Shown here one piece after another: positions 553 to 64,000 of a stretch of 64,000 nucleotides of DNA. Each line of letters begins with the position of its first letter. Within the stretch, counting starts at the first letter, position 1. A model generated the notes under the pieces. The model ran no database searches, was not told the DNA's origin, and was given only the letters and a program-made list of their open reading frames with translations. The DNA lies in contig JAFCMP010000029.1 of NCBI GenBank assembly GCA_017506865.1, forward strand, positions 248,001 through 312,000. The letters run 5' to 3'. Both the position numbers and the translations under genes were made by a program. The stretch comes from Tribonema minus. Lineage: Eukaryota > Sar > Xanthophyceae > Tribonematales > Tribonemataceae.

Positions 553-1367
553 ATCGATGTGTGGAGCCTGGGCGTCATCTTCTACCAGATGCTTTACGGG
601 GTGCGCCCCTTTGGCGAGGGCCAGACGCAGGTGAGGTCGCACATACATACCCTACCCTTGCACCATTTTATAAATATTGTTGTCGTCCTTGCCGACGTCG
701 GCGCTCTCTGTGAACTTGTTGTTGCCGAGATGGAGGATCGTGACGACGACTCTCCGGTCGTCGCACTCTCTGTGTCGTCACACGTGTGTCGCAAACCTCA
801 GGTTACTTGTACGAGGTGACGTGCCACTTTGACAATTCAAGTTGAGGGCGCACTTCATTTGACAACCAGATCGGGTTGTGTACAGATCTGCGACAAGCCA
901 GCACTCTCCGCATGCCGCCCTGCCCCTCTCGGTCTGCTCCTTGGATACTCGAAACGGACAGCGTGGGACGGCACACCTGAGCGCAAGCGCGTTGGCAGGG
1001 CTGCGAGTGATCGCGGTTTCACGTGCGCGTTCACGCCAGGCACACTCCCGTTTTCCGCACAGCTCGACGTCACTTCAGCTCTTGAAAACTTCAACACAGC
1101 TCACCCCCCCACCGGCCTACCACCTGACCCCTCCCACACCCCACCCCCCCCCGAATTCCGCCACCCCGTGCGCAGGAAGCCATCCTACGCGAGGGCACCA
1201 TGCTGCGCGCGACGTCCGTCGCCTTCCCCGCTGCCGGCGCCGCCGCGGCCGTCTCCGAGGAGGCCAAGGCGTTCATCATTGCGTGCCTTACGCACAGCCA
1301 GGCGGAGCGCCCCGATGTGCAGCAGCTGTGCGACCACCCATACCTGAGCCGCGGCGCCGGGAGATGA
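553..1367 (+). CDS. TLK: Tousled-like protein kinase, C-terminal part (5' end outside window)
   Basis: Serine/threonine kinase of the Tousled-like family, known in other eukaryotes to phosphorylate the histone chaperone Asf1 during chromatin assembly. Two exons are visible: 553-630 and 1176-1367. The first encodes kinase subdomain IX (DVWSLGVIFYQMLYG, then RPFGEGQTQ) and ends at CAG|GTGAGG. The second starts after CGCAG in the same phase with EAILREGTMLRATSVAFP, continues SEEAKAFIIACLTHSQAERPD and DHPYLS, and stops at TGA 1365-1367. The order 'PFGxxQxQ, ILxExTxLxATxVxFP, SxEAKAFIxxCLxxxxxxRxDVxQLxxxPYL' is characteristic of TLKs. Positions 1-552 hold no recognisable earlier kinase exon and are read as intron; the catalytic loop and N-terminus lie upstream of the window. 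The end of the last exon is duplicated just downstream (see repeat at 1300-1525). Confidence 0.85.
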
Positions 1368-1525
1368 CACAGATGACCATCGTGCTACTTCAACTTGAAG
1401 TACGGGGTCATGCTTGAAGTATCATGTCAGGAGAAGCGCCCCGGCGTGCCAGCAGCTGTGCGACCACCCGTACCTGAGCCGCTGCGCCGGGAGATGACAC
1501 GGTCGTGCTACTTCAACTTGAAGTT
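1300..1525 (+). repeat. Exon-edge echo at the TLK 3' end
   Basis: The end of the last TLK exon, with its stop codon and following bases (about 1303-1402), is repeated about 130 bp downstream (about 1431-1525). Both copies share CAGCAGCTGTGCGACCACCC, then TACCTGAGCCGC and CGCCGGGAGATGACAC, and then CGTGCTACTTCAACTTGAAG. Each copy therefore includes the palindrome TACTTCAACTTGAAGT (1386-1402 and 1509-1525). The second copy lies after the stop, so the duplication is not tied to splicing. Confidence 0.9.
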
Positions 1526-2878: not shown

Positions 2879-5664
2879 ATGCTGAACGCCATGGGCACGG
2901 CTGCACGCCATGGGCACGGCAAAGCTGCTGCCAAGGCGGCAGTCCTGCTGGTGCTGTTCACTATAGTGTCGCTCGAAGTGCGACGCCAGCAGCAATTCTC
3001 AGAGATGACAGGCCCTGAGAGTGTAGGGCAACCTTCAAATACTGCTGCACAGAGCAACCCGGCCACTTGCAGCGCTCTTTACGAAGAGGACATACAGCGA
3101 TGGCGCAGGAGAGCTTGTCTGCGCCGCCAGCGCACGAAGGAGCTGAAACTAGGCATGTCAGCCACCATATGGAGCTGGGATAGTTGGGAGCCGGAGGGGG
3201 GTTGCCGCTTGGAAGACAGGGTTGGGGAGGTGTATTGGGGGGATGGGCCCAAATTTGTTTGCGGCACGGAATACCTACGGGACAAGCCCGACTGCCTGGT
3301 CTACAGCATTGGCAGTAGCACGACCGACTCCTTTGAGCTTGGGCTGCTGGCGGTGGCCCCCAACTGCGAGGTGAGATTAAATCTAGATAGTTTGTTGCTA
3401 TCGCTGCAACAATCAATAGTGATAGACGTTGTGGATGTTGTGGGCTTATACATTCCCATGTACGCTGGGCACGATCCCTCAGACCTTGTTCTGACAAGTG
3501 CACATGTTCAACGAGCTCCCTTATTGGTGCCGGCAGACTGGGCTGACTGCACTGCCGCAGCTGTTTAACAGTGGCAGACACCGTTTCAGCTATACGTGGA
3601 CATCCCCGGCATTGTGCCTCAACACGTCGAAGTTCTTGGTTACGATGATATTGCAGCCGCCAGGCAAGACACAACATGTCAGCCTCTTGTGTACCACTGT
3701 GGCTTGTCTCGACATGACACCGGGTGACGAGTTCGTTGATGATCCTGGGTCTGCTGAAGGCCAGGCGAAGGCCATCACACCCTGCAACATTGCCTTACAC
3801 AAGCCTGAATAGCTGAAAACCGTCAAAACCTACAAGTAACTGACGTTCCGCCCGTGTCTGGTCACCAATTTGTGGTGCTCATCAATCAATCGTTCTGTCA
3901 TGATCATCCCCTGTCATCATTGCCGTCAGGTGCACACCTTCGACCCCACGGTTAGCGCGGAGGTCATGGCGGAAAAGAGCGCCGCCGGACACTACCAGTT
4001 TCACCTCATGGGCCTCGGGTCTCAGCAGCAGAGCGACGCCAACGTCATGCTAGACAGAGGTCCGCTGAAGACGCTCCAGGAGATGATGCAGGAGCTGGGC
4101 CACGTGGGACGGACGATTGACGTCTTCAAGGTCAGAGTGCACGGCACCGTGTTCTGTGCAACGCATCCAGGATCCATGCGCAGTAGGAGTTTTTTACACA
4201 TCACACGGTGCCGCCACTCTGCCTTGCACAAAATGGTTGCAATAGGCAACCCATCAACGCGCTGAACGTTGCGCACACGGGAAGTATACCTCCACTAACA
4301 GTACATGCAATCTCGTGAAAATTGCTGAGTCATGACCACTCTGGACCCTCCTCTTGGTGCATGGTTTGCCTCGTTGGTGCTGTGTGACTGCAAGAACTGC
4401 AGTGAGGTGACTGTCCAGCACAGAGCGCATGCGTCTCAGGTTGAGGCTGCAGATGCAAGCGCTGCTGCTGTGACTAATCAGCCGGTCAGTGCCTCATGTT
4501 GGCTGCTTGCAGTTCCTAAATGCTCTGTTACATTGACCCGGAGTCATCACCAGGAGTTGGAGTCTCTGATGGATCCCTCTACAAGGGGGGGCAGCAGCGG
4601 CATCAGGTGAAGCCTGTGTCAAGTTCGATTTCTTGCAGGACAACAATCATAACCGTGAGCCACAACAAAGCCGCTACATATGGGCACTGCAGCACCTGCG
4701 ACAGCACTTGAAGACGACCAGTCTTGCCAATCGTGTCTCTGCTTGCCTCAACTGCTGCGACAATTGCTGCGCCTGCAGATAGACTGCGAGGGCTGCGAGT
4801 GGTCCACTTTACAGGACCAGCTCATGAAGCCCATGCGCCACGGGGACTTGAAGATCGGGCAGATGCAAATTGAAGTTCATCTGGCGCCACTGGGCAAGAA
4901 GCCACTGCCTGGCATCATCAGCTTCTTTGAAGACGCAGATGCCGCGGGGCTTCGCGTCTTCCACAAGGAGCGGAATCACTGGGGCTGCGACGGCTACAGG
5001 GTGCGTGTCCGACCAGGAAGTGACTCATCATCAGACGCAAGTCAGCAGACTATCAGTATTGGCTGTGTGCAGCAAGGAAGTAGTATAAATATCATCATTT
5101 TTCAACAGAAAAAAACGATCAGCCACAGTGCAGATGCAGAAGCCGCAGCTGGCCCGCAGTGTCTGGGAGCTGGCTGAGGACAGTGTATTGCCACTGAAAA
5201 CATTGTCCGCGATTGGCGTAAGCAAATTTGCTTGTTGTATGCGTACTGCCGTGTTCGTTTTCACGAGCTACGCTTGTTGTGGCCACTTGCGTCTTTGACT
5301 GCTCTGAAGGCTGGTCGCTTGATCTTGTGAAACAATAACTGACGTTCATAACTTCTACAGGACGCATATATAAAAATCAATCAAGTTCAAAGCTTCATGT
5401 CATAGTTGTCATCCTCCGCTTTTTTGCGGCGACAGCCGCACCTGCAGAGCTTGAGAGCGCTCTGAGGCTAAAAGCGCATTCCCTCTCACCCTCCCCCCAA
5501 CGCACTACGCGCGCACGCAGTGCCTGGAGTACGCCTTCGTTTCGGCGGAGTGGTCGCGGCACGTCTTCCACAAGACGACATGCCCTTACAGCGTCAAGGA
5601 TGCCTCACAGCTGGGCGCGCTGCACGCGACGCTGGACTGCACAGGCCTCGATGGTGCGAGATGA
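2879..5664 (+). CDS. FkbM / METTL24-like methyltransferase, type II membrane protein
   Basis: Putative SAM-dependent methyltransferase of the FkbM/METTL24-like group; the substrate is unknown. Four phase-0 exons fit: 2879-3370, 3930-4130, 4779-5000 and 5521-5664 (TGA). The start ATG at 2879 precedes a hydrophobic segment (AAVLLVLFTIVSLEV, about residues 18-32), which suggests a signal anchor and a luminal domain. Exon 1 ends in CLVYSIGSSTTDSFELGLL plus APNCE, matching the family's SAM-binding start. Exon 2 continues VHTFDPTV and ends IDVFK. Exon 3 opens IDCEGCEW, the family's conserved acidic motif, followed by MQIEVHL. Exon 4 ends CTGLDGAR. The second donor (GTCAGA) is weak. The last exon's 3' end is duplicated downstream. 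The domain is clear from the ordered motifs; the exact N-terminus and substrate are not. Confidence 0.8.
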
Positions 5665-5965
5665 CAAGCGCCGATCGTGTGCTCAGGTAATGCATTGCAG
5701 CGTGGCGGTGCAGGGTGCGATGCTGGTATCGCAGAAGCGTTGTCGGATCGCCAGCCGCTGATGTGCCAGCACATCACACACGCAGATCCATACCTGGTGC
5801 CATTGGTGGACTGCACAGGCCTCTACATGGCGCAACATGACAAGCGCTGGACGTATGCTCAGGTAACGCACTGCAGCGTGGCGGCGGAGGATGCGATGCT
5901 GATCATTGTGAAAGCGTCGGCCGCCAATGCGCCAGCTCACCACATGCGTACCTGGCGATATCGTG
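5632..5965 (+). repeat. Tandem echo of the methyltransferase 3' end (period about 173 bp)
   Basis: Two diverged tandem copies, about 5632-5804 and 5805-5965. Both contain GGACTGCACAGGCCTC, ATGACAAGCGC, GTGCTCAGGTAA or ATGCTCAGGTAA, and GCANTGCAGCGTGGCGG. The first copy includes the last codons and stop of the methyltransferase; the second lies downstream of it. Confidence 0.85.
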
Positions 5966-8958
5966 AATTTCGCCACGACGGGCGTTGCGTGGCGCCTGTG
6001 AGTCGCACATCATGTGCAGGGCAAGAGGCGTCTGCACTACCAGTAGTATGGCGTCGGCATGTTCGGCTTCAAGAGCGACGTGCGCCACTAGGGGCAGCGG
6101 CAGTGTCTTCCCATGCCTGTCTTCAGATGGTTTTCGCGCGCGAATGCGCCAAACACGTTGCACCGAAACGAAAACGTGAAGCAGATTCAGCCTCGCCGCC
6201 GCTCAGTCAAGATTGAGTCGTCGAGTCGAAGATTTGAGTCACTGGCCTCCATGCCCCCCGAGCACATGTGGTGTATCACATTTACGGCAGGCCTGGTGCT
6301 GGTTGAGTTAGGTTACTGTAGCAGACCCAGAAGTCAAGAGCTTTCATGACATCAAATATACACGTGAAGGGTGCCGGCACGCAGGCACAAATAATGCAAG
6401 TGCAACAACGGGGTAGGGTGGGGGGGTGGGGCAACAGAGGATTACCCCCTTGTTAGTAGAAGTACTTGCTTCGATAGTATCTTGCTGGCGGTTACAGGCA
6501 AGCACTTTGGAGCACGTGCGACACATGCGCTCCATAAAATCCCACACAACATGCGCCCCTTTCTCAAGATCCCTTGTGTGATCCACGTTAAACTTTCAGC
6601 TTTGATGTTTGCTGCTGCTGCTGCTGCTGCTGTAAGGTTTTTGTTCTATGCTGAATTTCACTTGCCTGGCATGCTTCCGTGGTGAATGCACCTCCAGCTT
6701 TTTCAAACTGAGGTCAATACCAATGCTGTCCTGACTCATCAGCACCACCAAACCCCTGTTCTGAGAGTCGAGCTGGCCCAGGGTGATCGCATGCAAGTGT
6801 CCTCCCAACTGCGCATGAGTGCAGCAAGAAAAGGCAGGTTGATGTGCCAATCCTTCTTACATTAATCAATTGCCGGTTTGACGTAGGCGGCCCTGAGGCT
6901 CGTACACATCGGTGTATGACTTGTCAGCCGTATGCAACTCTGTCGACCGCGCATGAACTGGAGTCATTCTGTTGCAAATTTTTGGAAGCAGCAGCGTCCT
7001 GCTCACACACGGCTCAGCAGGTACAGATTGCGGAGCTCACGCTCTGGCAGCAACGCTACACGGCAGAGACTCCTCCTGCCGCTGCGGCAGTGCCAACTCT
7101 GACGCAGGCTTCATGGTGCATGGGCAGCAGCGCTCCGCCAGAGGCCGCACGGCGCGTGGCAGCGGCGACAGCGTCGTGCCGCCAAGCAACTCGACGTTAA
7201 ACTTTGAGGTGCTGCGGGATCACCCAGCCCTGTGAACCGGCCATCGGCTCTAACGCCAACGACGACATGTCGGCAGCACGCGGTGGAGCCCTGCCTATTG
7301 CCGCTGCAGCCAACAAAGTACCGGCAGCAAGCGGAGGAGCACTGCCTCACGCAGCTTTCAGCAATGCACTGGTGGCACACGGCAGTACACGCGCCGCGGC
7401 AGCCAGCAACGCGGCGGTGGAGTGCTATCACCCGCCACTGCAGCCAACAAGTCGCCACCGCCGACACCAACTCTGAGAGTCTGAGTCACCTCAAGGACGA
7501 CGCCTTCTTGGGAGACAGCTACGAGTTCTACGACGACGGCGACAACGAATTAGATGACGTTGCGCCTTGCACCCCAACTCTTCCCTCGCAGCAGCAGCGC
7601 TCACGCCGAGTGCCAGCGAATTGCGGGACAACATAACACGCCGCGCGGCGTGCAACCGGCACCTCGAGCTCCAGGCACTCAAGCTGGAAGCAACAAAGGA
7701 GCTGCTGGCTTGCGCAGTGCCGGAGTGCCGCGCTGGCGCGTCGTTGATGCTGCCAAGCGGCTCTGCGCCTGAACGTTGCACCGCTACATTTGCCAATGGT
7801 GCCGCTGGCCTGCGCAACGTCGGAGCGCCGCGCCGCCGCGTCACCTACCGCCTTGAGCTTGCCATGGCTACAGCAGCCATGCCCGCTCCTGCCGCTGCAG
7901 AAGCGCTGTAGCTGCCATCATGGCAATGGGAGCCTCCGCCCCCCGTGTTGCACCATGCTACATCACCCTTTTACTCACAGCGGCATCGAAGCTGCTTGCT
8001 GCTGCAGCGCAAGGGTGTGCCGCTGTGACAGTCGTTGACTTGGCAGCTGCTGCTGCGCCGAGAGCTGCTGCGGCAGCGTTGTCTGTTTGCTTGGCAGCCA
8101 TGGCGGGTGCAGCATTTTCATGCCGCGCCACTTCGAAAACTCGAATCAAATCAAATCAGTGCAGTGGAGTGTGCCACAACGCGCTATAATGCGTTTTGCC
8201 GATGTGTGGAGAATGCACTATAGCGCGCTGTAACGCACTGTAACGCGCCCGTGTGTGGAGAATGCACTATAGCGCTATAACGCGCACAGAGCGCGTTTGA
8301 GTGCGCTTTAACGTGTGGTGGGTTTTCGCAGTGGTGCCGCGCTGTTGCGCATTTACTGCAAGTGTAGAAAGAGTCAAAGGCACGTGCCTGGAAGGCACAA
8401 GCCAGAGACCACAGACTGTACAGGTACGCCACTCAGGTGCACATGGCCAACTGAACACGAGTCAAATTCAAAGGTACACATGCTGTATAGAGCATGGCGC
8501 AGGATCGCCAGTGAGCCTAGCGCAGGATTGGCTGTGCACACAACATGTTTCCAGGCAAAAGTACACTGCAGTCTAGCAACATCCTACCAACCGCGGCTGG
8601 CAGTCCGCTGCAGCATCCCAGGACAGCACACTGGTTGCAGAGGGCCGGCTCAAGTGCAGACTGTCTGATGGGCCATGTGTGATGCTGATTCAGAAGTGCA
8701 CAATAAGCAGGAGCGGGTAGTGCTGGCAACCACATGCGTATTCAATAAGTTAGTAAGCCGCATGCTGCACACTGCTGCTGCGCCTTGAAGTTCATGACAA
8801 TAGTGGACCAGGCAACGCAGACCGATCAAGAACAGCGAAACCCAGTGTAACAGCGGACCAGGTGTGTAATATTGGTGCGATGTCAACCAGCTTACACATA
8901 CACAACTAAATGATGATGATACGATTGCGGCAATATTCAAGCTACTGTTGCCGAGTTG
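5966..8958. other. Intergenic/low-complexity stretch without a supported gene
   Basis: There is a CTG-type trinucleotide run at 6611-6634. From about 6900 to 7910 the sequence is GC-rich and Ala-coding in several frames. Short segments look protein-like (PPSNSTLNFEVLRDHP near 7180-7230; HLKDDAFLGDSYEFYDDGDN near 7488-7550; AACNRHLELQALKLEATKE near 7645-7705), but they lie in different frames and no single product can be built. This could be a decayed gene or transposon protein, and I do not assign a family. A short tandem palindromic repeat follows at 8165-8300. The remainder to 8958 shows nothing recognisable. Confidence 0.4.
8165..8300. repeat. Tandem repeats around GCGCTATAATGCG-type palindromes
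   Basis: Repeated units of the form CACTATAGCGC, CTGTAACGC and GTGTGGAGAATGCACTATAG. The block GTGTGGAGAATGCACTATAGCGC occurs twice, near 8203 and 8253. The units are partly self-complementary. No function is evident. Confidence 0.7.
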
Positions 8959-10669
8959 TTAATACTCCACAAGCCTTAAGGCGCGCGCCTGAGCGGCCCT
9001 CACCCTGCGCCGCAGTCTCCTGTACTTCGACCTTTCATCGACGCTGCACGGACAACCGTTTGCTACTGCCCACTCTGCCGCCGCCAACATGTTGATATCG
9101 CAATGCTTGACAGCGTCAGGATCGCCAGCCACAGACCGCCCTAGAACGAGAAGCGCTAGGGTCCCGAGGGGCAGCCACGGGCAGCCATTGGCCCAAAGCC
9201 ACTGCAGCAACTCCAAGTGACCCTCCAGGACCGCCATCGTGCACACGCACACGTCCCACGGGCACCCGCGTGCCCGCAGCCACTGCAGGATGTCGAGGCG
9301 ACCGTGCATGGCGGCGGTCGCGCACTCACCTGCGCCCCAGGGCGCCCTTGCGTCGTGCAGCCAATGGAGCACGTGTAGATGGCCTCCATCAACGGCCGCC
9401 GTGTAGATCTCGTCGTCGAGAGGGCAGCCGTTCGCGTGCGCCCACTGCAGGAGCTGCAGGTGGCCGTGCTGCGCTGCAGCGTCGGTCGTCGTGGTGCTCC
9501 ATGGGCAGCCGTTGCGCTGCAGGTGCTGGACGATGCCGAGGTGGCCGCCCGCCGCGGCGCGTTCGCATGTCTCCTCGTCCCACGCGCATCCGGCATCGCG
9601 TCGCGCCCACTCCAGCACCTCCAGGTGGCCGCCGTATGCCGCTGCAGCACAGGCGCTCTCGTCCACGGGGCACCCGTTGGCATGCGCCCACTGCAGCACC
9701 TCCAGGTGCCCGTTGCCTGCCGCTGCTGCGGTCGTGCCCGCGTCCCAAGGAAACCTGCGGGCGCGCGTCCACTGCAGCATCTCGAGGCTCCCGCGCGCAG
9801 CCGCTGCCCTGCAGGCAAGACTGTTGTAGCGAGCGACCCCGGGCCGAGCGCGCGCGAGCGCGCGAGGAGGGGTTAGCGAGAGAGGAGTTGCCCCCCCCCA
9901 CCCCTACCCCCCCCCCACACACACACCCCCCAAGGGCGTCCACCAAATCGGAAATTTCTGCTTAAAACTCGAATTTTACCCGACCAATGAAAGGGCCCAG
10001 AACCTCAGGGCGGCGATGGCCTGAGGGGGATGCAGTACATTCGGACGCCGGAGTGACTGATTTATGCTGCAGAGGTGTTATTGATGCTGGCAGTGAGGCG
10101 ATGTGCGTCTGTCGCAAGTCTGCGCGCTGTCGGAGAAACGGTGGAACCTGAGGTGTGATGCAGCGTCGTGCTTCGAGGCGGAGCGCTCGGAGGTGGGTGC
10201 CATACCCACAATGGGAGTCGGAGCAGCGGCGACAGCGTCCTCCTCAACATGATCGTCAGTCACAGGAGCAATCGGAGCCGCCGCCTCTGTGGGCTTTGAA
10301 TGCAGATTAACCCCCGGCTGCTGAAGGGTCGCGAGCCCCCCCTTGCGGGACTTGTAGGGTAGGTACCTGTCGACGATCCCTCTCACGCTGTTTGCGTGCA
10401 CATATCGTTACAACTTCGAATGTGCCGCATTTGGTGGCCTGCCAGAGCAGCCACGCGGTCATTCTGCATCCGTTCGCAGACGCCCACTGAATGAGGGGCA
10501 TAGATGCAACCATGGCCTGCCCATTTGTTTTTTTGTGTGACTGGGCCCGCCTCCTCTGCTGCACGCCAGTGGCATACAGTGCGCGCCAGACCGTGCTGAC
10601 AGATGAAATCTGGAGGTAGCGCCCGTGTGGCAGGAATTCGAATATTTTCGTCCACAAATCTGGGGGCAT
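8959..10669 (-). CDS. F-box / ankyrin-like 'LQWAHANGCPW' repeat protein (left copy, broken frame)
   Basis: Read on the minus strand. An F-box-like N-terminus starts at ATG 10669 (PPDLWTKIFEFLPHGRYLQI), followed by the first repeat (PLIQWASANGC). Frame continuity is lost near 10400; the neighbouring frame continues EYVHANSVRGIVDRYLPY, which aligns with QYMHETGTEFDKYLYF in the right copy. After an anomalous GC-rich/low-complexity stretch (about 9830-10300) the repeat domain runs uninterrupted from about 9808 (possible acceptor CTGCAG|) to 8959. It has about seven repeats of the type GHLEVLQWAHANGCPV and ends ALRLVEY. Such proteins are usually taken as substrate adaptors of SCF ubiquitin ligases with ankyrin-like binding repeats. 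The frame break and spacer mean this copy may be a pseudogene or need an intron I cannot place. Confidence 0.6.
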
Positions 10670-11447
10670 AGGAAGAATGGAAGTGCTTGAAGGTTACTGA
10701 TAAGCCGTCGGCGTCGTGAGAGCAGCAACCCACATGCTTTTAAGCCTAGGCGCCCAGTATGTGTATGCGGCGTGTGAGTCATTCAAAGAGGCAACCCAGC
10801 AGCTCCAGTTATTGCGAGGCACGTTCGCAACGAGAGCTTAACATGCTGCACACCGTGGTGCCCATCCAATGCAGAGGAAAAGGAAGATGATCACTTACCG
10901 CGTTGCTGTTGGCTCGCTGCAGCTTTGGCGTCACAAGAGGCAGCGAGAGCGAGGGCACGAGCCCTCTTCCTTGTCGCCACCATCCTCTGCACACGCCTGC
11001 CGTCTAAGAGAGTTAGGCAGCGCAAATGTTTTTTTCAAAAGCTGCAGCTCAAAAAAAGCTTGAACTCGAAAAAGCTCGAAAAAGCTTCAACTCAAAAAAG
11101 CTTAAACTTTGCGAGTGAAAAAAAAAAAATCCTCCTTTCCTCTTCAAGTTCTTCAGATCCAGTGAAGGATGGTGGCCACCCGGAAGAGGGCCTGTTCCCT
11201 CGCTCTTGCTTCTGCTTTGTGACGCCAAAGCTGAAGCAAGCCAACAGCAACGCGGGAAGTGGCTCACGCCCATGACCTGGATTTCTGTTGGCGCAAAGGT
11301 GTGATGTAGCATCTTCGTTGCACGCGCGGCTTTTGCATGAAGTTGTTGTTGCTACGTCAAAGGATCGAAAATTTTGCACATGGCGCGGGACGACCTCTCA
11401 AACACAGGCTTTCGAAAGCACGTGGCTGCTTGTCTCCCTGTTGCTCG
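10670..11447. repeat. Inverted-repeat centre between the two F-box/ankyrin-like genes
   Basis: The segment at about 10870-10990 is the diverged reverse complement of about 11165-11290. Left reads CGCGTTGCTGTTGGCTCGCT, then GCAGCTTTGGCGTCACA; right reads TGTGACGCCAAAGCTGAAGC, then AAGCCAACAGCAACGCG. Between them lie short AAAAAAGCTTGAACTCGAAA-type repeats (11046-11105), centred near 11080. With the flanking genes in opposite orientation, this marks an inverted duplication covering about 9.0-12.6 kb. The region may also act as a shared promoter. Confidence 0.75.
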
Positions 11448-12640
11448 ATGTGCATGACTGACTCTGAAGCGCTTGCATTTTCTGCCCCCATGGCCTCAGA
11501 TATGTGGATGAAGGTTTTCGAATTCGTGTCAGACGGACGTTACCTCCAAATCTCATCCGTCAGCACTGGGTGGCGCTCGCTATATGCAAGGAGCATGCAG
11601 CAGAGGGAGCAGGCGCAGTCACTCAAAGCAAGTGCCCAAGCCATGGTTTCATCCAGGCCCATGATACAGTGGGCGGTTGCAAACGGGTGCAAACACACCA
11701 TGCTGATCCGGCACGCCGCCGCATGCGGCATACTAGCAGTGGTGCAGTACATGCACGAAACCGGCACAGAATTCGACAAGTACTTGTACTTTAAAACGCT
11801 CGTTGCAAGGCGGCAGCATCACGCGGAGATATCGAGATGCTGCAGTGGGCGCACGCAAACGGGTTTGTCTGGGACGCCCGCACAGCCCGGGCAGCGGCAG
11901 CCAAGGGGCATTTGAAGGTACTGCAGTGGGCGCACGCCAATGGGTGCCCCCTGAATAAGACCGCATACGCCGCGGCGGCATATGGGGGGCATATGGAGGT
12001 GCTGGAGTGGGCGCGGCCCGACACGGGATGTGCGTGGAACAAGGAGGCTTGCGAAGGTGCTGCAGCAGCCGGACGCCTCGACGTGCTCCAATACCTGCGG
12101 CGCAATGGCTGCCCATGGGACACGATGACGTCCTACGCTGCGGCGCGGCACGGCCACCTTCAGCTCCTGCAGTGGGCGCACGCGAATGGCTGCTCCCTCA
12201 GTGACGAACCCTACGCGGCAGCTTTGCAGGGAGGCCATCTACACGTGCTCCAGTGGCTGCACAACATAGGTGCGCCCTGGGACATAGGTGAGTGCACACT
12301 AGTTGCTACAAACGGGCGTCTCGACATCCTGCAGTGGCTGCGCGCACGCGGGTGCCCATGGGATGCGTCCGTGTGCACAATGGCGGTTCAGCACGGTCGC
12401 TTGCAGTTGCTGCAGTGGGCACGCGCTAACGGCTGCCCATGGGAGCCAAGCGGAACCCTTCGCTTTTTTCAGTGGAGCGTGTCGGGCATGGCCGGATTAC
12501 CCGTTGAGCGCCGCCACGTCAACATGCTGTCAGCGGTGGAGTGGGCGCTAGCAAACGGCTGTCCGTGCAATGACGATGATAGATCTGCGTACAGGAAGCT
12601 GCTGCGCAGGTTAGGGCTGCAGAGGCGCGCGGCCTTGTAG
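11448..12640 (+). CDS. F-box / ankyrin-like 'LQWAHANGCPW' repeat protein (right copy, one frame shift)
   Basis: Start at ATG 11448 or 11454. The N-terminal F-box-like stretch MASDMWMKVFEFVSDGRYL plus QISSVSTGWRSLY is followed by IQWAVANGC, AAACGILAVVQYMH and FDKYLYFKTL. Near 11809 the frame changes by what looks like one missing base; the other frame continues AASRGDIEMLQWAHANG and runs through about eight repeats (GHLKVLQWAHANGCPL, GHMEVLEWAR, GRLDVLQYLRRNGCPW and others) to TAG at 12638-12640. It is closely related along its whole length to the minus-strand gene at 8959-10669. It is probably a substrate-binding F-box protein by family analogy. Whether the discontinuity is a real mutation, a very small intron or a sequencing error cannot be decided here. 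Confidence 0.65.
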
Positions 12641-16603: not shown

Positions 16604-28830
<12,227 letters not shown>

Positions 28831-28831
<1 letters not shown>

Positions 28832-43116: not shown

Positions 43117-43533
43117 GCATGACTTCTACGGTGCAGCACCGGTTTCTTGGCCTCCATAATAAATCCGCGACCGTTTTTGCTGCACAATCTGGACCTGCTA
43201 CTTTTTGTCGTTGTCTGCTCCATGTATGGCATTGAGCTTTGCCACCTGCTTGATGCAGCTTCTGCTTTGAATGCCACTTGGCGAATGTGATGCTTGCCCT
43301 GACACAAAGCAATTGCACTCACAAGGCATGACTTCTATGGTGCAGCACCGGTTTCCTGGCCTCCATAATAAATCCGCGACCGTTTTTGCTGCACAATCTG
43401 GAGCTGCTACTTTTTGTCGTTGTCTGCTCCATGTATGGCATTGAGCTTTGCCACCTGCTTGATGCAGCTTCTCTTTGAATGCCACTTGGCGAATGTGATG
43501 CTTGCCCTGACACAAAGCAATTGCACTCACAAG
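43117..43533. repeat. 209-bp tandem duplication, two nearly identical copies
   Basis: Copy 1 is 43117-43325 and copy 2 is 43326-43533. Both run from GCATGACTTCTAYGGTGCAG through CCTCCATAATAAATCCGCGA to TTGCACTCACAA. They differ at only a few bases (TTCTTGG/TTCCTGG, GACCTGC/GAGCTGC, and CTGCTTT/CTCTTT with one base deleted), so the duplication is recent compared with the exon echoes. On the minus strand the sequence reads open in more than one frame but no family is recognised. Confidence 0.92.
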
Positions 43534-49730: not shown

Positions 49731-49767
<37 letters not shown>

Positions 49768-53000: not shown

Positions 53001-54909
53001 GTCTTTAATACCGTAGTACAGCGTGCAGTTTAGCTCCGTATGCATACCGCATGCAAGTACGCGCACCTTGGCGTGCTTCTTCCTCGAGAAGGTGAGCTGC
53101 GCGACGGCCTGGCGCACGGTGAGACTGCGCCGATATACCTACCGTATTGCAGAGTATGCAACACCCTATACAGTGTAAAGCTCAGGTCCATATGCAGACC
53201 GTAAGCGGAAACGCGCACCTTGGCGTGCTTCTTCTTGAGGAAGGTGAGCAGTACCCTGTAGTACACCTATGTAGTGTTGTTCTATCTGCATACTGCGAGC
53301 AGGAACGCGCACCTCGGCGTGCTTCTTCTTGGAGCAGGTGAGCAGTCTGAAAATATGCCTAAGTACATTATTTAGTTTAGTTCCACATGCAAACCGCATG
53401 CGGAAACGCGCACCTTGGCGTGCTTCTTCTTGGAGAAGGTGAGCTGCGCGACGACCTGGCGCACGCGCTGATGTACCTACCGCATTACAGGTATACGATA
53501 CCCATACATTATGTAGTTTAGTTCCATATGCAAACCGCATGCGGGAACGCGCACCTTGGCGTGCTTCTTCTTGGAGAAGGTGAGCTGCGCGACGGCCTGG
53601 CGCACGGTGAGGCCGCGCACGAGCTTCGCCACGAGGTTGAGCTTGAGCGGCGACACGCGTATGGCCAGCTCCTGACGCCGCACAATCTGCGCCGCGTCGT
53701 ACTGCTCCGCCGCCAGCGTCTTCCACCTGTCGCGCAGTCGTAGCAGCAGCAGCGGCAGTAAATAGTGATAGTGATTGATCAATGCATTGGTCGAATCACT
53801 TCGCGCGACCGCTGCTGCGACATGTCAGCAGCGACAGCACCGGTGTGATGGTCAATGGTAGAAGTATATGCGTAGGTGGAAGCGGTTCTGCTCTGCCGCC
53901 AGCGTCTTCCACCTGTCGCGCAGGCGCAGGCGCAGAGGCGTCATGTGCCTATCTAGGCCGAGCGGACCAACATTTGGAGCGTTCCGGGCAGCGATTCTAA
54001 TGATGCCTGGGTGTTTTTCTGGGCGTTCCCGATTAGGCCTGGTCGCACATTTTGCGTGTCGACCTTATTGTTGCCTGGCCCGATTGTGTGCATGGTGATG
54101 GTCAATGGTCAATGCATAAGTCGAAGCAGTTCGCACGACCGCTGCTGCGGGGTGTCATGAGTCGGGCGGCGCATGCACAAAAGAGATCAGCAGGGCAGTA
54201 ACCGCTGCGGAACATTCCTAGGGACATTTGCATCTCCATGAGACACAAGCTATTGAAGGGGGCAAGTCACAGGACGGGGGTGCTGTAGGTGTGATTCACT
54301 GCGGTATCGCAGACTTGCCTGCCTTTCCCTCTCATGAAATCGCGGTCGTCTTTGGCCATGAACAACCCTTCATCCTGCGCGGAACAGAGTGCAGCCGACG
54401 GGATGTGAACGATATGGCGCTAGTGGTGGTTGAAATTTCAGCTCGCCACTGCCCACAGGAGTCTGAGCAGCCCCATGGACCAGAGTGAGTTGGCTCCCCA
54501 TGGATTACTCTCAGGAATAATAAAATGCAGATAAAAGAGTTCATGTCAACTCTGTTGGCGTCAATACAATGCAATTCATGCCCTGGCATGCAACTCGCAC
54601 TCGCGCCAGCGTTGTGTCTGATCTTCCTCTGGGTGTCCCTATGAGGGACTGCGGGACCAGAAGCATGTGCAGTTGCAGCACAAGCATAAGAAACCACAGA
54701 CTTGCCTTCAGATGCTGATTGAACGCGTCATAGTAGTGCGTCTTGCCCTGCTTCCTGCCCACATAGGAGAAGTCTGCGGCTGTGTCCTCAGTGACGGTGG
54801 TGTCGTTTATGCTAGTGCTGGACATCGGTCGCAGCAGGGCTGCTGCTGCCGCATTTTGGCAGCATGGCAGCCGGCTGCGCAGCCCCGCCGACCACACGCT
54901 CCGCAGCAT
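50061..54909 (-). CDS. MRPL22: Mitochondrial ribosomal protein L22 (uL22m)
   Basis: Large-subunit ribosomal protein lining the exit tunnel, here the organellar form. Exons from 5' to 3': 54909-54706, 53726-53555, 52303-52181, 51146-51045 and 50168-50061 (TAG). The N-terminus is a typical mitochondrial presequence (MLRSVWSAGLRSRLPCC, Arg-rich without acidic residues), followed by FSYVGRKQGKTHYYDAF. Exon 2 encodes the uL22 core start (IRVSPLKLNLVAKLVRGLTV, then AQLTFSKKKHAK). Exon 3 has LLSDACREAREKFGF and LDQIYVGKGEQQKRQR. Exon 4 has GKGRTGLGYRRWAHLTVHLR, the conserved uL22 C-terminal signature. Exon 5 is a basic helical tail. Exon 1 ends at a GC donor (CTGAAG|GCAAGT). Its phase 0 does not match the acceptor chosen for exon 2 (1 base before the first full codon), so a small exon or another edge is missing there. 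All later joins are phase 0. Confidence 0.88.
50700..51045 (-). repeat. Donor-side echoes of L22 exon 51045-51146
   Basis: The edge CTTACTCTGGACGATGAAAT plus CTTCCCA (51040-51066) recurs as CTCACCCTGGACGATGATAT plus CTTCCCA (about 50900-50926). The preceding intron text (GCACATATCCTTCTCGCCCT, TCTCGACAGC) recurs at about 50838-50870 and 50746-50785 (GCGCATTCTGCTTCTTGCCC, TTCACAACAGC). Confidence 0.85.
51700..52030 (+). repeat. Tandem repeats with telomere-like CCCTAA in an L22 intron
   Basis: About 51718-51840 (GACACAGCATTCACGGCCAT, GTTCCAGCTATGTTACCCCC, CCTAACCCTAACC, CATACAGCAAGCCC) is repeated with changes at about 51895-52025. GCATACAGCAAnCCC occurs three times. Confidence 0.85.
52303..52730 (-). 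repeat. Acceptor-edge echo array of L22 exon 52181-52303 (3 copies)
   Basis: The exon start (plus-strand GCTGCAGCGTCGTCTGCGCG) recurs at about 52437, 52581 and 52687, with a period of about 110-150 bp. Each is followed by GGGCGCGCGCGATGCA-like sequence, and the intron parts share CGAGAGATTTTCGTTCTTTC and TTTATCTGGAGCAAACTTTC. CGCAG acceptors are retained. Confidence 0.95.
53030..53555 (-). repeat. Donor-edge echo array of L22 exon 53555-53726 (4 copies)
   Basis: Plus-strand copies of CGCGCACCTTGGCGTGCTTC followed by TTCTTGGAGAAGGTGAGC start at about 53060, 53213, 53308 and 53409; the intact edge is at 53550. They encode the end of exon 2 (TFSKKKHAK) plus its GTGCGCG donor, which all four copies keep. 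Each unit also carries TCCATATGCAAACCGCATGC-like intron sequence. Two copies extend further, covering GCTGCGCGACGGCCTGGCGC. Confidence 0.96.
53878..53935 (-). repeat. Acceptor-edge echo of L22 exon 53555-53726
   Basis: CTGCTCTGCCGCCAGCGTCT followed by TCCACCTGTCGCGCAG repeats the exon start at 53701-53735 (CTGCTCCGCCGCCAGCGTCT and TCCACCTGTCGCGCAG). Intron text TTCGCGCGACCGCTGCTGCG (about 53799) also recurs at about 54128. Confidence 0.9.
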
Positions 54910-55165
54910 CGCGCACACACACAACCTTCAGGTTTTGCCTCACGAATTTCCGTAGGAACTTCAACTATGTTCAGAGTTGTGTACAAGAGCTTTCACTCGT
55001 TCTTGGCGTGGCTTGTGAGCATCGTGGCAGCAGCGGAGATATAGGAGCGCACATCAGCAGCCGAGCGCACTTGGGTTCAGGGAGTGCTGTTGGCGGTGAA
55101 CATCATCCTGCTCTGGTTACCCCGGCCGCGCTCTGCGCAGCGCATCGCAGGAGGGAGCGGGAGCC
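54910..55165. promoter_or_regulatory. Divergent (shared) promoter region of MRPL22 and the PCF11-like gene
   Basis: The two start codons (54909 minus, 55166 plus) are only 256 bp apart, so both promoters must lie within or overlap this interval. No TATA box or known element is evident. The interval is defined by gene position, not by a recognised motif. Confidence 0.55.
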
Positions 55166-58100: not shown

Positions 58101-61100
58101 CGACACTGGTACACCGGCATTGCACTTTGTGCACGTGGACATGCGGGCACTTCAAAGGTATGCAGACGGACCTTACAGACCTGACAGTGGTTATGAGGTC
58201 ATCTCAAGGTCTTTCCGGCATACGTGCACAAACCAACACGACGCTCTGCCCCCCCCCGCCCCCCCCCACCCCCCCCCCCCCCCCCGCAGCATGTTCCCCC
58301 CTGACGTCCTCGCGGTAATGCGCGCGCACGTCTCAGGCGCCCCCACCCCCAAGCCCCTCCCCCTCGTACACCCCCCGCTGCCCCCGGCGCAGCGCCCCGC
58401 GCGCGCCGCAAGGGGGCCGTCCCCCGCCCCCCGCGCCCCCGCCCCCCCTACCGGCCCCCCCATCATCTCCAAATTCAGCCCCATATCAGAAGACGAGGAC
58501 ATGGACATGGACGAGGATGACGAAGGGGGGCCTCAGCACCCCCCGTTGCCTGCGCGCCCCCCCCCCTCAGGGGGGCGTGCCAGGGGGCCGCAAGAGCCCC
58601 CACACGGCGCCCGCGGCGACCCCCCCCCGCCCCCCCATGCAGGAGCCCCGCCCCCCAGGGGCGGGCCCGCACGGCCCCCCTCGCGAGGCCCCCCTGGGGA
58701 GGGGGCGTCTGCGGGGGGTCCTGGCAGGGGGGACGCGCGCCGCCCCCCTCGTGCGCGCTGGTCGCCTGCGAGCCCCGGTGACGGGAAGGGGGGGGGGGGG
58801 GCAGGGGGGCCTCTGCAGGGGGGTGTCGTGCTGCGGCCAGACATGCCTCACGGGCCGATCGTGAAGGCAGGGGGCGCGCCCCCTCCGGAGGTCAGGGCGG
58901 GGGATGCTGTCGGCGGGGGCAAGGGGGGAGCGGGGGGCGCGCCGGTGGACGGTTCCATTGAGTTCCAGCACCTCGTGGACGTGCGCATGCGCGAGCTGCT
59001 GGAGCTCAACATGCGGGACCTAGGTGGGTGGTATTGCTCAGTCGTTGTGTGCGAAGAGAGCGCGCAAATCGGCTGAGGTGTGCTGCAGCAATCTGCTGAA
59101 GTCCGTTTCGCTTGCACCCATCCTGCTTGTTGCCGTGTTCACTGCGCACGTTCTGAAGTTACATCACCTGCCTGCGCACTCGAGCTGCTGGAGCTCAATA
59201 TGCGGGACCTAGGTGGGTGATGGCGCTCAGTAGGTAGGTGTGTACGTCGAGTGTCAGCGCTCAGCTCACAGCTATCGCGGAAAGCCGAGGGAGGAAAGGA
59301 GGGCGAGGTGCCGCGAGGCGTATCGGAGCCAGTTGTTGAGGCTCCCCTCGCCTGCGCCCATGCTGCTTTTTGCCATTTCTCGGGGCAGATTTGAACGCTT
59401 ATCATACCCCCGGTGCCTTCAATCCTCGTTGCTGCTGTTGCAGGCGACGGCCGAGGCATGCTGCACCCAGTTGTTGAACTCCCCATCCGCTGCACCTACC
59501 CTGCTTGTCGCCATCTCACGGCGCACGTTCCAGACGCTCATCCCCCCCCTGTGCACTGAATCCTCGTCGTTGCTGCTGCTGCAGGCGCCGCCGGTGCGGA
59601 CACCATGACCGTGGAGGAGCTGTGGCGCACGGATCCAGACCTCGCCATGGAGTTCCGGACGCTCGCCGGCTCACAGGTACTACCTCAAATTTGAAGTGCA
59701 GTGTCCTTGTGGTGACTCTCCACGGATCCCGACCTCGCCATGGAGTTCCGGACGCTCGCCGGCTCACAGGTACTATAGTGGTTTCTTCAACTTGAACTAT
59801 CTACGATGACATATAGTTGTTTACAACATATTCAGATGTTGGTGATGGGGCTTCGTCGTCATGCTGTGCGCTGCTGCGGCTTCGCCATGGAGCTCACCGG
59901 CTCACAGGTACTACTTCAAAGGTGAAGTGAAGTGCCCTTGTAACGACTCCCCGCCAGCGCGCTGCACAACAGGTGTGGTTCTGCTACTCAAACATCCACT
60001 ACGATTTCTCATCACATGTTGCTGTTGTGCTCTGCTTTCACACACCCCATCACCATTATGTATGACTGGTCTTGGGTGTATCACTTCACGCGCACCCTTA
60101 ACATGCATGCCTTGGAGTGCACACTTCTGGAGCAGATACTTTGCAAGCATACATACACTATCGGTGGTGAGGTATGTACAACCACCTGCGTCGCGCTGGC
60201 CGCAGCGCTCAGCCTTAGGGCTAGGGTTAGGGTTAGGGTTTGTGCCCCACAGAAAACCCATCACCGCACTACTGTACTGGTCGCAGCGCTGCTCCGGAAT
60301 GAGGCCCCGACCTCATTCCACACACGCAACACACCTGCAAGTCTCCAACTACGTCGCCTCGTGCAGCGTGAACTGAATATTCACGCTACCCTACGCTGTG
60401 GCGCCAGCCAGGCCTCCGCGGCGGCTGCTGTGCGCCTGTCAGGACTACGGGCAGGGCGATGGTGAAGATCAAAACGAGGCTCGCTGTCTGCGCCTAACCC
60501 TAACTCCAACCCTCAGCGTCAAGCGCGGCGCGCACGCTGCTGCTGCCTCGCCCAAGCCATCGGGCTAGGGCTAGATCTAGGGTTAGGGTTAGGGCTACCC
60601 CTCACTCTCCACGCTTATCCCCCCTTTTACCCACGCACGTCACAGGTGCAATCCGACCTGAACATGTACGGCGCCGTGCAGCCGCTGGGGCGCACATCCC
60701 CCGCCCCCACCGCCCCCCACCTCCCAGTGTCCCCCGTGCCGCCCCCGGCAGAGGCGCCACGAATCCCCGCCGCCGCTGCCGCTGCCGCTGCCGCCGCACT
60801 GAAGGCGTCGCCGTCACCGGTGCCGCCAGCGCTGCCGCTGCCGCTGCTGCCAGCGCCGACGCCGGCGGCGGCAGCAGCAGCGGCGGCGGCGGCAGCGGCG
60901 GCCGCGGCAGCAGGCAGGCCGTCGCCGCCGCTGGTGCTGCCGCCCGGTGTGCCGCCGCCGCCGCCGCCGCCGCCGGCACTACAGCCGGATCAACTGCAGG
61001 TACGCTTTTGTTGCATGCCACAACAGCGATGGTTACTTAGGCCACAGTGTTTGAGATTGGGGTTGGGGTCAGCACGCGGACTGCTTTGTCTACACATTTA

Positions 61101-63727
61101 GCTCATTTGAGCGTAACTGACAAGGAGTGAGACGCATGCGTACGCCGGGCTAGGGTTAGGGTTAGGGTTAGGGGTAGGCGTGCCTCCGACACTCAAGTGG
61201 TGTGTGGCACTTTACAGCGTTGCGCGTGCACGGCCTGCTGAGTGGCCAGCTGAGTCGGGGTGTCAGTCAGGGTCTGAGCCAGGTTCAGGGTCAGCTACTT
61301 CTCGGGCACCTTGCAGTGGCAGTGGCACAGGCCCCTATTACTTTTGCGCACCGTTGCATAGCGCAAGCAACATCAAGCACTCTCATTTTATTGCCACGTG
61401 ACACACAACAATCACACAGGTGAACAATTTGAATAGGAGACAGTGACCCTACCCCTGCGATATCGAGAACCCTCACTGCAATGCCTTCAAGTTTGCAGGC
61501 TGGTCAGCCTCATTTCAAAATCGCCTTGCTCATCCATCTGCCCCCCCCCCCCCCCCCCCCTCCTCCCCCTTCGTCCTACAGCTGCTGCTGCAAGCCCAGC
61601 AGGCTCTGGCAGCGGCGATGCCCAAGCACAAGAAGCGGGCACGGGTGCTGCCGCCGGTAAGCAGTAATGCTTATATATCATTAATGTTCGTTAATCATCA
61701 ATGCTACCTCCGGTAAGCAGTGCTGCAAACACATGCAGGCATGATCAGGGATGTTGACCTCACACTTCAAAGGTACGCAGAATCAGAGTTATTTCTTGCT
61801 GTACAGCACGGCGGAACAAACTGGCTGTAAACTGCAGCAGTGAATGGGCGTTGCGTGCCAACAGGCATAATCATGTCCAATTTCTGCAGTGCATTTTTCC
61901 AAGTGCAATAGGCCGCATGGACGCACCAATGCAGCGCGGGCAGAGGTTTCATCAGCAACTTCAAAATGGTGCACCAGACACAGCACATGCATTGCGGATA
62001 TATACAACTTGGAAGTTTGCACTGTACCGTTTGTGAAATCTGAATACTATCAGGCACATGATCTGAGTATACTAGTACTTGCAGGGCATGTATACGTTGC
62101 GTCAAAGTGTATCCATGCTATAACCAGTTGAAGAGATGCGGAGTACTCAGCACTTTGACAGAACGCACACACAAACACACACAGGTCGAGAGCGGTGCCT
62201 GTGCTGCCTCCCCGTATTTTTCCGCCGGTGCCTCGCCGCTGCGTCTTGACACTGCGGCCCCTCTGCGTTATGAATTCAACTACAACTGTGACACTCCGCA
62301 CTCTGGTGCGCGGGCAAAACAGGACAAAACGAGTGTACTTCCTGCCTGTTCTGCCTTCCTGCATGTCCGCCTGTGCCTCGCCGCTGACTCGTGCTGCTGC
62401 TGCGGCCGTCTGCTGCATCATCAACTTCAACTTTGTTTCATTCAACTTCAACTGTGACACTCCTCGTTCTGGCGCGCAGGCAAAGCAGATAGACTACGAG
62501 CGCGCCAAGGCCGTGGCGCAGCGCCTGGTCATCGACATTGCGACGGTCATGTCAGCGCTCCACAAAAACGACCCCCAGGTGCCCAATGGCAGTACATAGT
62601 TTGCACGTAACATAATTGCACGCCTCCATTTCTCAACTACTCTGAGTACATCGCAGCGTTCGTGTCGGCGCTTTGCAAGGACGACCTTTGAGTGTCCGGC
62701 TGCCGTTGCAGCGGCAAGTCTCCCACCTCTTCAATCTAAAGTACCTCATGTGTGTTTGCAACTGTCATGTCAGTGTTCAAACAAGGATGTTCCCCAGGTA
62801 CATGGTAGTATTGGTAGGTAGATGGGTACCCGGTTGCCTTCCCAGCGGCACATCTACATTGCACCCAACCACCTTCAGTACACATTGAAACGAGGCTAGT
62901 TGGCGACGTGTTCTGTCATTGGACAGTGTGTTCGCAGTGCTCACACATTGTCGTCCGCATTGCAACAATTCAGTACTCGTTGAGCAAAATGACTGCCGGG
63001 GACTGGCGGAGCAAGGTTCATGGCAGAAGCGGCCGATGACAACACTTGAGCGGAGACGAGGTGCAACCACACACTCTGACGCTCAGATGTAGTACAGTGC
63101 GTTGCATTATAGTCTAATGATATACTGCCAGCGCATCGCGCACCACAGTGTCAGAGACGGTCGACGAAGCACTATTGCAGAGGCACCTCTGTGTATCGTG
63201 TTACTAGAATCGGATCGCACACAGCATGCGTCACTGCGCCTGTGGTGGCGCAGCGATGCTGACTCTGCGATGACCTCACCATGCGCTGAGCGCTGGATGA
63301 CACAAGTTGCACACATCACTTGAAGTTTTATGTCTTTTTCTTTGCATCAGCGCTGATGCTGCTGCATCACTGCTGACCTCCGCGGCAGCACCTGTCGCAT
63401 TCTTCCGGGCCGGCTGGTGTGCAGAAGTCCAAACAGTGCTCAGCGCCGCTGTCGCACTCGTAGGGGTGGCAGGTGTCCGGAACTTCAACGTCCACTGTGT
63501 GGATTGCGGAATGTTGAATAGGGCTGCACATGCTGCGCGTGATTCAAGTCTTGTGTCGCACTGCGTGCAGAGGTGCAATGCGTCGAATATTAAACCATGT
63601 CACCGATGACAACATCACGCAGGCACCGACACTGGCAGTCCAAGCTGCGGGCTCGGCAGCGGCGGTGGCGGAGGTATTCGGCGTCGGCGGTCTGGGCGGA
63701 CAGGCCTACGAGCTGGAATCGGATGAG
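55166..63727 (+). CDS. PCF11: PCF11-like CID protein (3'-end processing / transcription termination), 3' end outside window
   Basis: Binds the RNA polymerase II CTD through an N-terminal CID and acts in mRNA 3'-end formation. Exons: 55166-55290, 56098-56200, 56972-57046, 57822-57868, 58290-59023, 59585-59676, 60646-60999, 61582-61656, 62480-62578 and 63623-63727; all phases agree. CID motifs: DKYVIQRLTQQAERHA, SIVALLEGLI, KLPLCYLIDSILKNVP (matching KLPLLYLIDSIVKN), YVKLFGRNVGHWYLAAYEAV, VLGTWETTSMFPPDVLAVM. A long proline/glycine-rich low-complexity region follows, with acidic DEDMDMDEDDE. After it come QHLVDVRMRELLELNMRDLG, VEELWRTDPDLAM, poly-Ala and poly-Pro, then MPKHKKRAR and a helical stretch YERAKAVAQRLVIDIATVM. 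The last visible exon ends at GATGAG|GTATGT, so the gene continues. Echo arrays occur at exons 58290, 59585, 61582, 62480 and 63623. Confidence 0.85.
56489..56510 (+). repeat. Interstitial telomere-like tract (CCCTAA)n
   Basis: TAACCCTAACCCTAACCCTA in the PCF11 intron between exons 56200 and 56972. Confidence 0.85.
56650..56705 (+). mobile_element. Retroelement 3'-tail fragment (repeat A, short)
   Basis: GTCATCTGGGCTTTTGTGCG followed by CCCTCAGCGAAGAAGTAATC matches the end of the tail repeat but is shorter and more diverged than the copies at 16155, 24068 and 49008. Confidence 0.5.
58992..59225 (+). repeat. Donor-edge echo of PCF11 exon 58290-59023
   Basis: GAGCTGCTGGAGCTCAACAT followed by GCGGGACCTAGGTGGGTG at 58992-59030 recurs at about 59182-59220 (GAGCTGCTGGAGCTCAATAT and GCGGGACCTAGGTGGGTG), about 190 bp downstream. 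The donor is identical in both. Confidence 0.93.
59395..59585 (+). repeat. Acceptor-edge echo of PCF11 exon 59585-59676
   Basis: The intron end AATCCTCGTCGTTGCTGCTG CTGCAG|GCGCCGCCG (about 59560-59593) is preceded about 137 bp upstream by AATCCTCGTTGCTGCTGTTG CAG|GCGACGGCC (about 59426-59454). Further upstream units share TGCACCCATCCTGCTTGTTG-like text near 59112, 59352 and 59490. Confidence 0.85.
59676..59925 (+). repeat. Donor-edge echoes of PCF11 exon 59585-59676 (2 copies)
   Basis: GATCCAGACCTCGCCATGGA followed by GTTCCGGACGCTCGCCGGCT and CACAGGTACTA is repeated at about 59725-59775, almost unchanged, and partially at about 59880-59918 (TTCGCCATGGAGCTCACCGG, CTCACAGGTACTACTTC). Each unit has a CTTCAA...TTGAA palindrome-like element just after the donor. 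Confidence 0.95.
60214..60597 (+). repeat. Interstitial telomere-like tracts in a PCF11 intron
   Basis: Runs of TTAGGG (with CTAGGG variants) at 60214-60240 and 60563-60597, between exons 59676 and 60646. A third tract is at 61148-61180 in the next intron. Confidence 0.85.
61640..61725 (+). repeat. Short donor-edge echo of PCF11 exon 61582-61656
   Basis: GTGCTGCCGCCGGTAAGCAG (61645-61664) recurs as ATGCTACCTCCGGTAAGCAG (about 61700-61719), about 55 bp downstream, with an intact GTAAGC donor. Confidence 0.75.
62186..62480 (+). repeat. Acceptor-edge echo of PCF11 exon 62480-62578
   Basis: About 62225-62325 (GTGCCTCGCCGCTGCG, AACTGTGACACTCCGCACTC, TGGTGCGCGGGCAAAACAGG) is a diverged copy of about 62374-62490 (GTGCCTCGCCGCTGAC, AACTGTGACACTCCTCGTTC, TGGCGCGCAGGCAAAGCAG). 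The upstream copy has lost the AG (CGCGGG). Confidence 0.8.
62578..62805 (+). repeat. Donor-edge echoes of PCF11 exon 62480-62578 (2 copies)
   Basis: The exon end ATTGCGACGGTCATGTCAGC followed by GCTCCACAAAAACGACCCCC AG|GTGCCC is echoed, diverged, at about 62650-62692 (ATCGCAGCGTTCGTGTCGGC, GCTTTGCAAGGACGACC) and about 62758-62803 (AACTGTCATGTCAGTGTTCA, AACAAGGATGTTCCCCAGGT). The last keeps a CAG|GT donor. Confidence 0.75.
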
Positions 63728-64000
63728 GTATGTGTACTTGAACTTCCTGGTTGGTGTTGCGCTTGCACTCTTACTTGAAGTATGTACTTCGCGTTGCGAG
63801 GCCATGAGGTCCACGGCGGCGGTGGCGGAGGTATTCGGCGTCGGCGGTCTGGGCGGACAGGCCTACAAGCTGGAATCGGATGAGGTGCGTGCACTAGAAG
63901 TTCTTTGTTGATGTTGCGCTTGCACTTTGATTTGAAGCATGTACTTCATTGTCAATATTGCTTGAGTTCGTACTCGGTCTGGGGGGACAGGCCTACGACT
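63655..64000 (+). repeat. Donor-edge echoes of PCF11 exon 63623-63727 (2 copies, cut by window end)
   Basis: GCGGCGGTGGCGGAGGTATT, CGGCGTCGGCGGTCTGGGCG, GACAGGCCTACGAGCTGGAA and TCGGATGAGGT (63658-63729) are repeated at about 63818-63887 almost exactly. A further copy starts at about 63976 (TCGGTCTGGGGGGACAGGCC) and runs off the window. Intron parts share GTTGCGCTTGCACTnTnAnT and TGAAGNATGTACTTC. Confidence 0.96.

Follow-up and report, generated by a model that had tools for sequence, protein, structure and literature searches.

Local direct repeats cross coding edges more often than expected in a 64-kb window of the Tribonema minus genome

We analysed a 64,000-bp stretch of the Tribonema minus genome (hereafter the window; positions 248001-312000 of contig C29; the assembly has 554 contigs and a size of 158 Mb), in which 58 exon or CDS edges could be placed in a TLK-like kinase gene, an FkbM-type methyltransferase gene, ADSS, a METTL-like gene, a ribosomal L22 gene and a PCF11-like gene. 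The six gene spans together take up 35,630 bp. This edge set was hand-curated and is incomplete: the METTL-like and PCF11-like exon lists are probably short of exons, the last two PCF11-like exons were assigned by position only, two planned bZIP edges that could not be located were excluded, and the two edges of a small L22 exon are absent from the 58-edge tests and present in a 60-edge recount. Ten rough joined protein pieces were searched with Pfam; four of them had no match in that search, and the domains found in others were a kinase C-terminus (Pkinase), Methyltransf_22, Ribosomal_L22, CID and bZIP_2. For the FkbM-type gene, Methyltransf_22 scored over the cut-off and the FkbM model just below it; the methyltransferase match of the METTL-like piece was sub-threshold only. 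ADSS was modelled as ten minus-strand exons forming one open 428-aa frame, and a further exon was later placed in front of these on the basis of a codon-score scan and the Tribonema N-terminus. The best match of the ADSS protein was from Tribonema minus (85% identity), with Chrysoparadoxa (73%) and Ectocarpus (71%) as other named matches near the top. The L22 joint KKKHAK/T matches a transcript-derived homologue, and the CID joints agree with Phaeothamnion. GC donor sites of ADSS and L22 were noted at 19560, 54705 and 54318.

Other features of the window include an inverted pair of ankyrin-repeat genes (8862-12759; 74.5% identity over 966 bp), each with an F-box-like segment before it as judged by eye, and a 209-bp head-to-tail duplication outside any recognised gene (43117-43533; 98% identical). 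An interspersed repeat of about 120 bp occurs in both orientations (23391, 24708, 33934, 34905 and 44484), and internal telomere-like CCCTAA tracts lie at 56490, 60218 and 61147, with CTAACCC-type 7-mers roughly 6- to 12-fold above expectation. The heptamer ACTTCAA occurs 63 times in the window against 17.6 expected under a Markov model.

At many of the placed edges, the outermost coding bases and the adjacent non-coding DNA recur outward from the exon as direct copies, which we call echoes. In the TLK-like kinase gene, which has a Pkinase match, the last coding bases, the stop codon and the 3' flank are repeated once downstream at an offset of 129 bp (1299-1524, plus strand), and in the FkbM-type gene the CDS end, stop codon and 3' flank are repeated once at an offset of 174 bp (5633-5901, plus strand). 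ADSS, on the minus strand, carries an exon 8 donor array of the exon and three echoes (17621-18091), an exon 8 acceptor array with three echoes (18122-18655), an exon 7 donor array whose three echoes all keep the GC donor (19221-19600), and an exon 7 acceptor array with three echoes (19612-20134). Further along lie an exon 5 donor echo (21177-21436), an exon 4 donor array (22743-23280), an exon 3 donor array (23912-24304) and an exon 3 acceptor echo (24379-24652). The start of exon 1 (26297-26420) is the source copy of an acceptor array whose four echoes (27770-28240) lie 1.4 kb from the exon because an inserted element (26391-27740), ending in perfect 30-bp inverted repeats (26391-26420 and 27711-27740), sits between them. 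The element lies inside an ADSS intron, is probably a DNA transposon and, since it parts the array from exon 1, the array probably came first. One more minus-strand array (28832-29333) abuts the acceptor of the ADSS first exon; its copies end at the edge and it was counted as non-crossing.

The METTL-like gene (plus strand) has an exon acceptor echo that is 92% identical (36200-36517) and an acceptor echo at its last exon, with a head-to-tail unit of about 69 bp (37171-37308). In L22 (minus strand), the exon 'TTLQLL', whose joint is confirmed, bears an acceptor array of three echoes (52290-52763), the exon '...KKKHAK' a donor array of four echoes (53007-53618) and the exon 'RWKTL' an acceptor echo (53699-53943). 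In the PCF11-like gene (plus strand), we found a donor echo at exon '...NMRDLG' (58982-59231), acceptor echoes at exon 'AAGADTM' that reach 6 bp into the exon and were counted as non-crossing (59070-59590), and a donor array of two echoes at exon '...RTLAGSQ' whose best pair is 98% identical (59628-59952). Also on the plus strand, the predicted exons 'AKQIDYERAK' and '...YELESDE' have an acceptor echo (62196-62488) and a 90% identical donor echo (63659-63998), respectively.

Self-comparison of the window (E<=0.01, offset below 2500 bp) gave 93 local repeat pairs, 88 direct and 5 inverted, and 59 of the 88 direct pairs had offsets of 60-260 bp. Before counting, we removed low-complexity pairs, the interspersed-repeat pair 23391/24709 and, except for the ADSS exon 1 array, all pairs offset by 1000 bp or more. 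This left 33 local direct-repeat families in the six gene spans, including one telomere-like and one interspersed-repeat family, neither of which crosses an edge. Scoring a family as crossing when it extends 6 bp or more past an edge, we found that 20 of the 33 (61%) cross one of the 58 edges, compared with 9.4±2.4 when rigid arrays were placed at random, a null that reached 20 in 0 of 5000 placements, and with 3.8±1.8 when single units were placed. The edges hit numbered 20 of 58 (34%) against 10.9±2.9 (P 0.002). In the 60-edge recount the figures were 20 of 33 families against 10.1±2.5 (0/5000), and 20 edges hit against 11.8±2.9 (26/5000). ADSS alone showed a weaker excess, with 9 of 13 families crossing against 3.9 expected (P 0.002) and 9 of 19 edges hit against 4.7 (P 0.026; 0.04 by circular shift). 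Within the six gene spans, tandem units thus overlap exon edges beyond chance, as the original prediction had it, and its gene-by-gene counts roughly hold: one crossing family each in the TLK-like and FkbM-type genes, nine in ADSS and two in the METTL-like gene, as predicted, with three in L22 and four plus one borderline in the PCF11-like gene. In the genes said to lack the pattern, this search likewise found no edge echo. The ENaC-like and 139-aa genes had no local repeat pair in the self-comparison, and the bZIP gene, without an edge echo, had only a 46-bp direct pair of 80% identity (39223-39268 and 40194-40239, 971 bp apart) and a low-complexity pair.

A family-free test, in which the coding 60 bp at each edge was compared with its own outward non-coding DNA, was calibrated on 1047 control comparisons. 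At the 99th percentile, 22 of 58 edges had a copy against 1 of 58 for the reverse complement; at the 95th percentile the numbers were 25 and 9 of 58, and weak matches are not clean. By edge type, copies were found at 13 of 27 donors, 7 of 28 acceptors and 2 of 3 stops (donors versus acceptors, Fisher P 0.10), so that the echoes do occur at donors, acceptors and final exons alike, with one edge per unit, as first described. Exon 60-mers with a copy numbered 15, 7, 5, 1 and 0 of 42 at offsets of 0, 20, 40, 60 and 80 bp, a signal that falls off with greater depth into the exon, and 5 of 74 interior exon 60-mers matched. The observation of edge echoes is thereby confirmed.

The evidence covers this one window and one outside region, C1:825-828 kb, which was chosen because of a palindrome and looks histidine-kinase-like by eye. 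The two main coding segments predicted there have ends overlapped by four repeat families, as read from coordinates with the exact edges not placed, and further families are tied to no coding segment. At two other loci (L004 and L005) repeats were present and none could be tied to exon edges; at L005, a 319-bp duplication that is 96% identical (337-985) contains an exon-like segment. The palindrome TACTTCAASTTGAAGTA, considered as a general driver of the arrays, was rejected: the window holds four exact copies, one at TLK (1386) and three in ADSS arrays (19349, 19915 and 20031, the last two in the exon 7 acceptor array), and most arrays have none. Genome-wide, there are 186 exact copies against 0 for the reversed control.

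How the copies have diverged reveals which of them are live. In exon-echo pairs, mismatches were most frequent at third codon positions (57/511, compared with 38/501 and 28/503), and mismatches between echoes were spread over codon positions without bias (61/374, 48/373 and 59/382; p=0.45). In addition, 11 of 12 gaps in exon-derived echo parts shift the frame. As the third-position excess is confined to exon-echo pairs and the gaps break the frame, one member of each pair is the exon under constraint and its partner is dead, drifting neutrally. The frameshifts and the single edge per copy also speak against the copies being full functional exons. Nevertheless, with curated edges, exon parts of exon-echo pairs were 6.7% divergent and non-exon parts 16.2%, figures that come from 27 of 38 hand-chosen pairs with at least 12 bp on both sides. 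Given that this ratio of 2.4 lies above the 1.1-1.3 obtained in neutral simulations allowing 25% exon change, exon-derived echo sequence may decay more slowly.

Selection might keep or favour the echoes as redundant splice sites, an idea already raised in the original prediction, or as alternative mini-exons. The splice dinucleotide (AG or GY) is kept in 25 of 30 echoes, some exon-derived parts remain in frame, and in echo-echo comparisons exon-derived parts were 18.9% divergent against 33.5% for intron-derived parts, although this contrast is unreliable and the second figure too high because the alignments include non-homologous flank. By a rough estimate, though, the dinucleotide retention is not clearly above drift, and selection of this kind is at odds with the missing codon-position bias, with the frameshifting gaps, with echoes that span a stop codon and hold no splice site, and with the Tribonema ADSS protein, which by reading has no inserted echo. 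We therefore regard selection on spare splice sites as very unlikely.

The TLK-like and FkbM-type echoes were rightly predicted to exist, but the units span the stop codon and contain no splice site. Since some echoes span stop codons, splicing does not define the units. Where the edge falls within a unit appeared uniform when units of matched length were compared (P 0.63; extents entered by hand), and against units drawn from U(60,220) the exonic and non-exonic extents were short (P 0.06 and 0.02, respectively). The uniform position means that the edge carries no breakpoint signature and no sign of splice-site cleavage, and by-eye inspection revealed no common breakpoint motif. RNA-mediated copying, by which reverse splicing or cDNA repair from pre-mRNA would write exon-edge fragments into introns, would account for the involvement of exon edges. 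It sits badly with units that run across the edge without ending at the splice site, include only a portion of the intron and also occur at stop codons, and of the explanations considered here it seems to us the least probable.

The echoes directly show outward polarity and decay with distance, and they are found both at splice sites and at stop codons. The predicted decay was borne out in all nine arrays with at least two echoes measured, in which the nearest echo was the best by exon-part identity (tied in two), as would be expected if the live edge was copied again and again. The single edge and the outward polarity need no special mechanism, because a two-edge unit would double the exon, and an inward copy would be disfavoured because it would usually break the frame. 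Short tandem duplication falling uniformly, with selection purging units inside exons or doubling them, would accordingly yield outward polarity, one-edge units, stop-codon echoes, neutral drift and an edge position that looks uniform for matched lengths; its edge pairs would also stay visible longer, as the exon copy is conserved.

What uniform placement does not readily give is the number of families at edges. Our simulations started from the layout of ADSS and let sequence duplicate, change by substitution and indel, be deleted and pass purifying selection; the detector was unchanged, and the unit lengths, the indel rates and a steady state were assumed. When duplications fell uniformly and selection was purifying, 21-25% of families lay at edges, or 24-28% once large-block turnover was added, against the 61% observed; at a rate of 0.28, finding 20 of 33 has a binomial P of 9e-5. 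The steady-state uniform model had 24% of its families crossing an edge, hit 13% of the edges and placed 25% of the repeated intron sequence in edge families, whereas a 6-fold edge bias gave 54%, 29% and 61%, to be compared with the observed 61%, 34% and 79%. A copy was found for 15 of 42 exon-edge 60-mers, where the uniform model predicts 17% and the biased one 35%.

Intronic 60-mers provided a comparison in which exon conservation cannot create copies, because intron is compared with intron. With growing distance from the edge, 16/40, 13/40, 13/41, 24/71 and 26/74 had a local copy (reverse control: 3, 2, 0, 2 and 1). Uniform duplication should give a rise with distance, from 19% next to the edge to 43%, and a 6-fold bias a flat profile of 22-29%; the flat profile observed therefore favours bias, although its level of 32-40% exceeds the 6-fold prediction and the contrast between edge and deep tiles is by itself not significant (P 0.58). 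Taken together, the simulations suggest that the data are better fitted when boundary-spanning units are favoured about 6-fold or more than when placement is uniform, and we consider duplication without edge preference unlikely.

A variant that comes closer supposes that the introns lengthened only recently, from a short state, through uniform duplication, such that tolerated units mostly had to span an edge and the present arrays are a relic of that time. Growth from introns of 150-400 bp, the most favourable uniform model, made 30-43% of families cross an edge and hit 20-35% of the edges, a range that reaches the observed 34%, and at 43% the finding of 20 of 33 families has a P of only 0.03. 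The same growth should leave 63-68% of intron sequence in recognisable repeats, where we observed 30%, and 22-26% of recent pairs at an edge, where we observed 9 of 17. Recent growth from short introns thus appears to us rather improbable, more so than steady uniform duplication.

Several known processes resemble parts of this pattern. Exon duplication, as in mutually exclusive exons, also repeats coding sequence in tandem within a gene, but there the unit is a whole exon with both splice sites and an open frame, unlike the one-edged, frameshifted and decaying echoes. Introner elements are single families spread over many genes, and like the echoes they are intronic repeats near splice sites; within the window, by contrast, echo units match their own exon edge only. 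The distant repeats of the window (offset at least 2500 bp, length at least 60 bp) comprise ankyrin genes, low-complexity sequence and interspersed repeats, and no echo unit is among them. Intron gain by proto-splice-site duplication, in the outline of it used here, likewise duplicates part of an exon in tandem and hides the extra copy by splicing. There, the unit lies inside the exon, carries AG/GT and itself becomes the new intron, whereas echo units span an existing edge, carry existing intron and lengthen that intron or the 3' flank. Tandem partial-exon duplication that makes an intron goes by the name of the Rogers model. Our search for edge-anchored duplication arrays, confined to an open library, chosen terms, titles and the start of abstracts, returned none.

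The closest likeness is to patch-mediated double-strand-break repair, described in rice as leaving 10-1000 bp of inserted sequence, either copied wholly or partly in tandem or copied from within 200 bp of a break (Vaughn and Bennetzen 2014, via PMC7407515). The arrays described here are similarly direct, local and tens to hundreds of bp in size. The account of patch repair in the part of PMC7407515 drawn on here mentions no coding-edge preference, unlike our finding that most local families in the gene spans cross an edge; on our assumption that patch repair should act independently of coding boundaries, the 20 of 33 families set against 9.4±2.4 depart from it. The type of event is known and its distribution is unusual.

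We lean, on balance, towards neutral, repair-like short tandem duplication with a preference for coding edges as the full explanation. On this account, short direct duplications, in tandem or close to it, arise often in the genome, probably through error-prone patch repair of breaks, and boundary-spanning units would arise or become fixed about 6 or more times as readily as intron-only units. Judging from the gene models, an edge-spanning unit would spare the gene, with the outer splice site or stop codon still used and the second copy lying outward, in the intron or 3' flank, where it drifts as dead sequence. Repeated events at one edge would re-copy the live edge and push older copies outward, and such serial re-copying would yield one-edge, outward arrays that decay with distance. 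What draws duplications to the boundary can be guessed at: a step in base composition, perhaps, or chromatin at GC-rich exons. Of the mutational process first proposed, the edge preference is thus favoured, and nothing in our data is specific to re-replication or template switching.

To our knowledge, there are few explanations of how introns become longer where transposons are not involved. Here, copies from edge-crossing families make up 4120 of 17336 bp (24%) of clear intron. More tentatively, and with slightly less than even confidence, we propose a lineage-specific mutational process in which short tandem duplications favour coding/non-coding boundaries at about 6 times or more the intron-interior rate, such that introns lengthen from exon edges inward and much intronic DNA is decayed edge copy. 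Annotators should beware that some echo copies score as exon-like in a codon-usage scan. Should the edge preference extend to the whole genome, the sites of DNA breakage or repair would be shaped by coding boundaries, and this alga would lend itself to testing how introns grow and how splicing tolerates duplicated sites.
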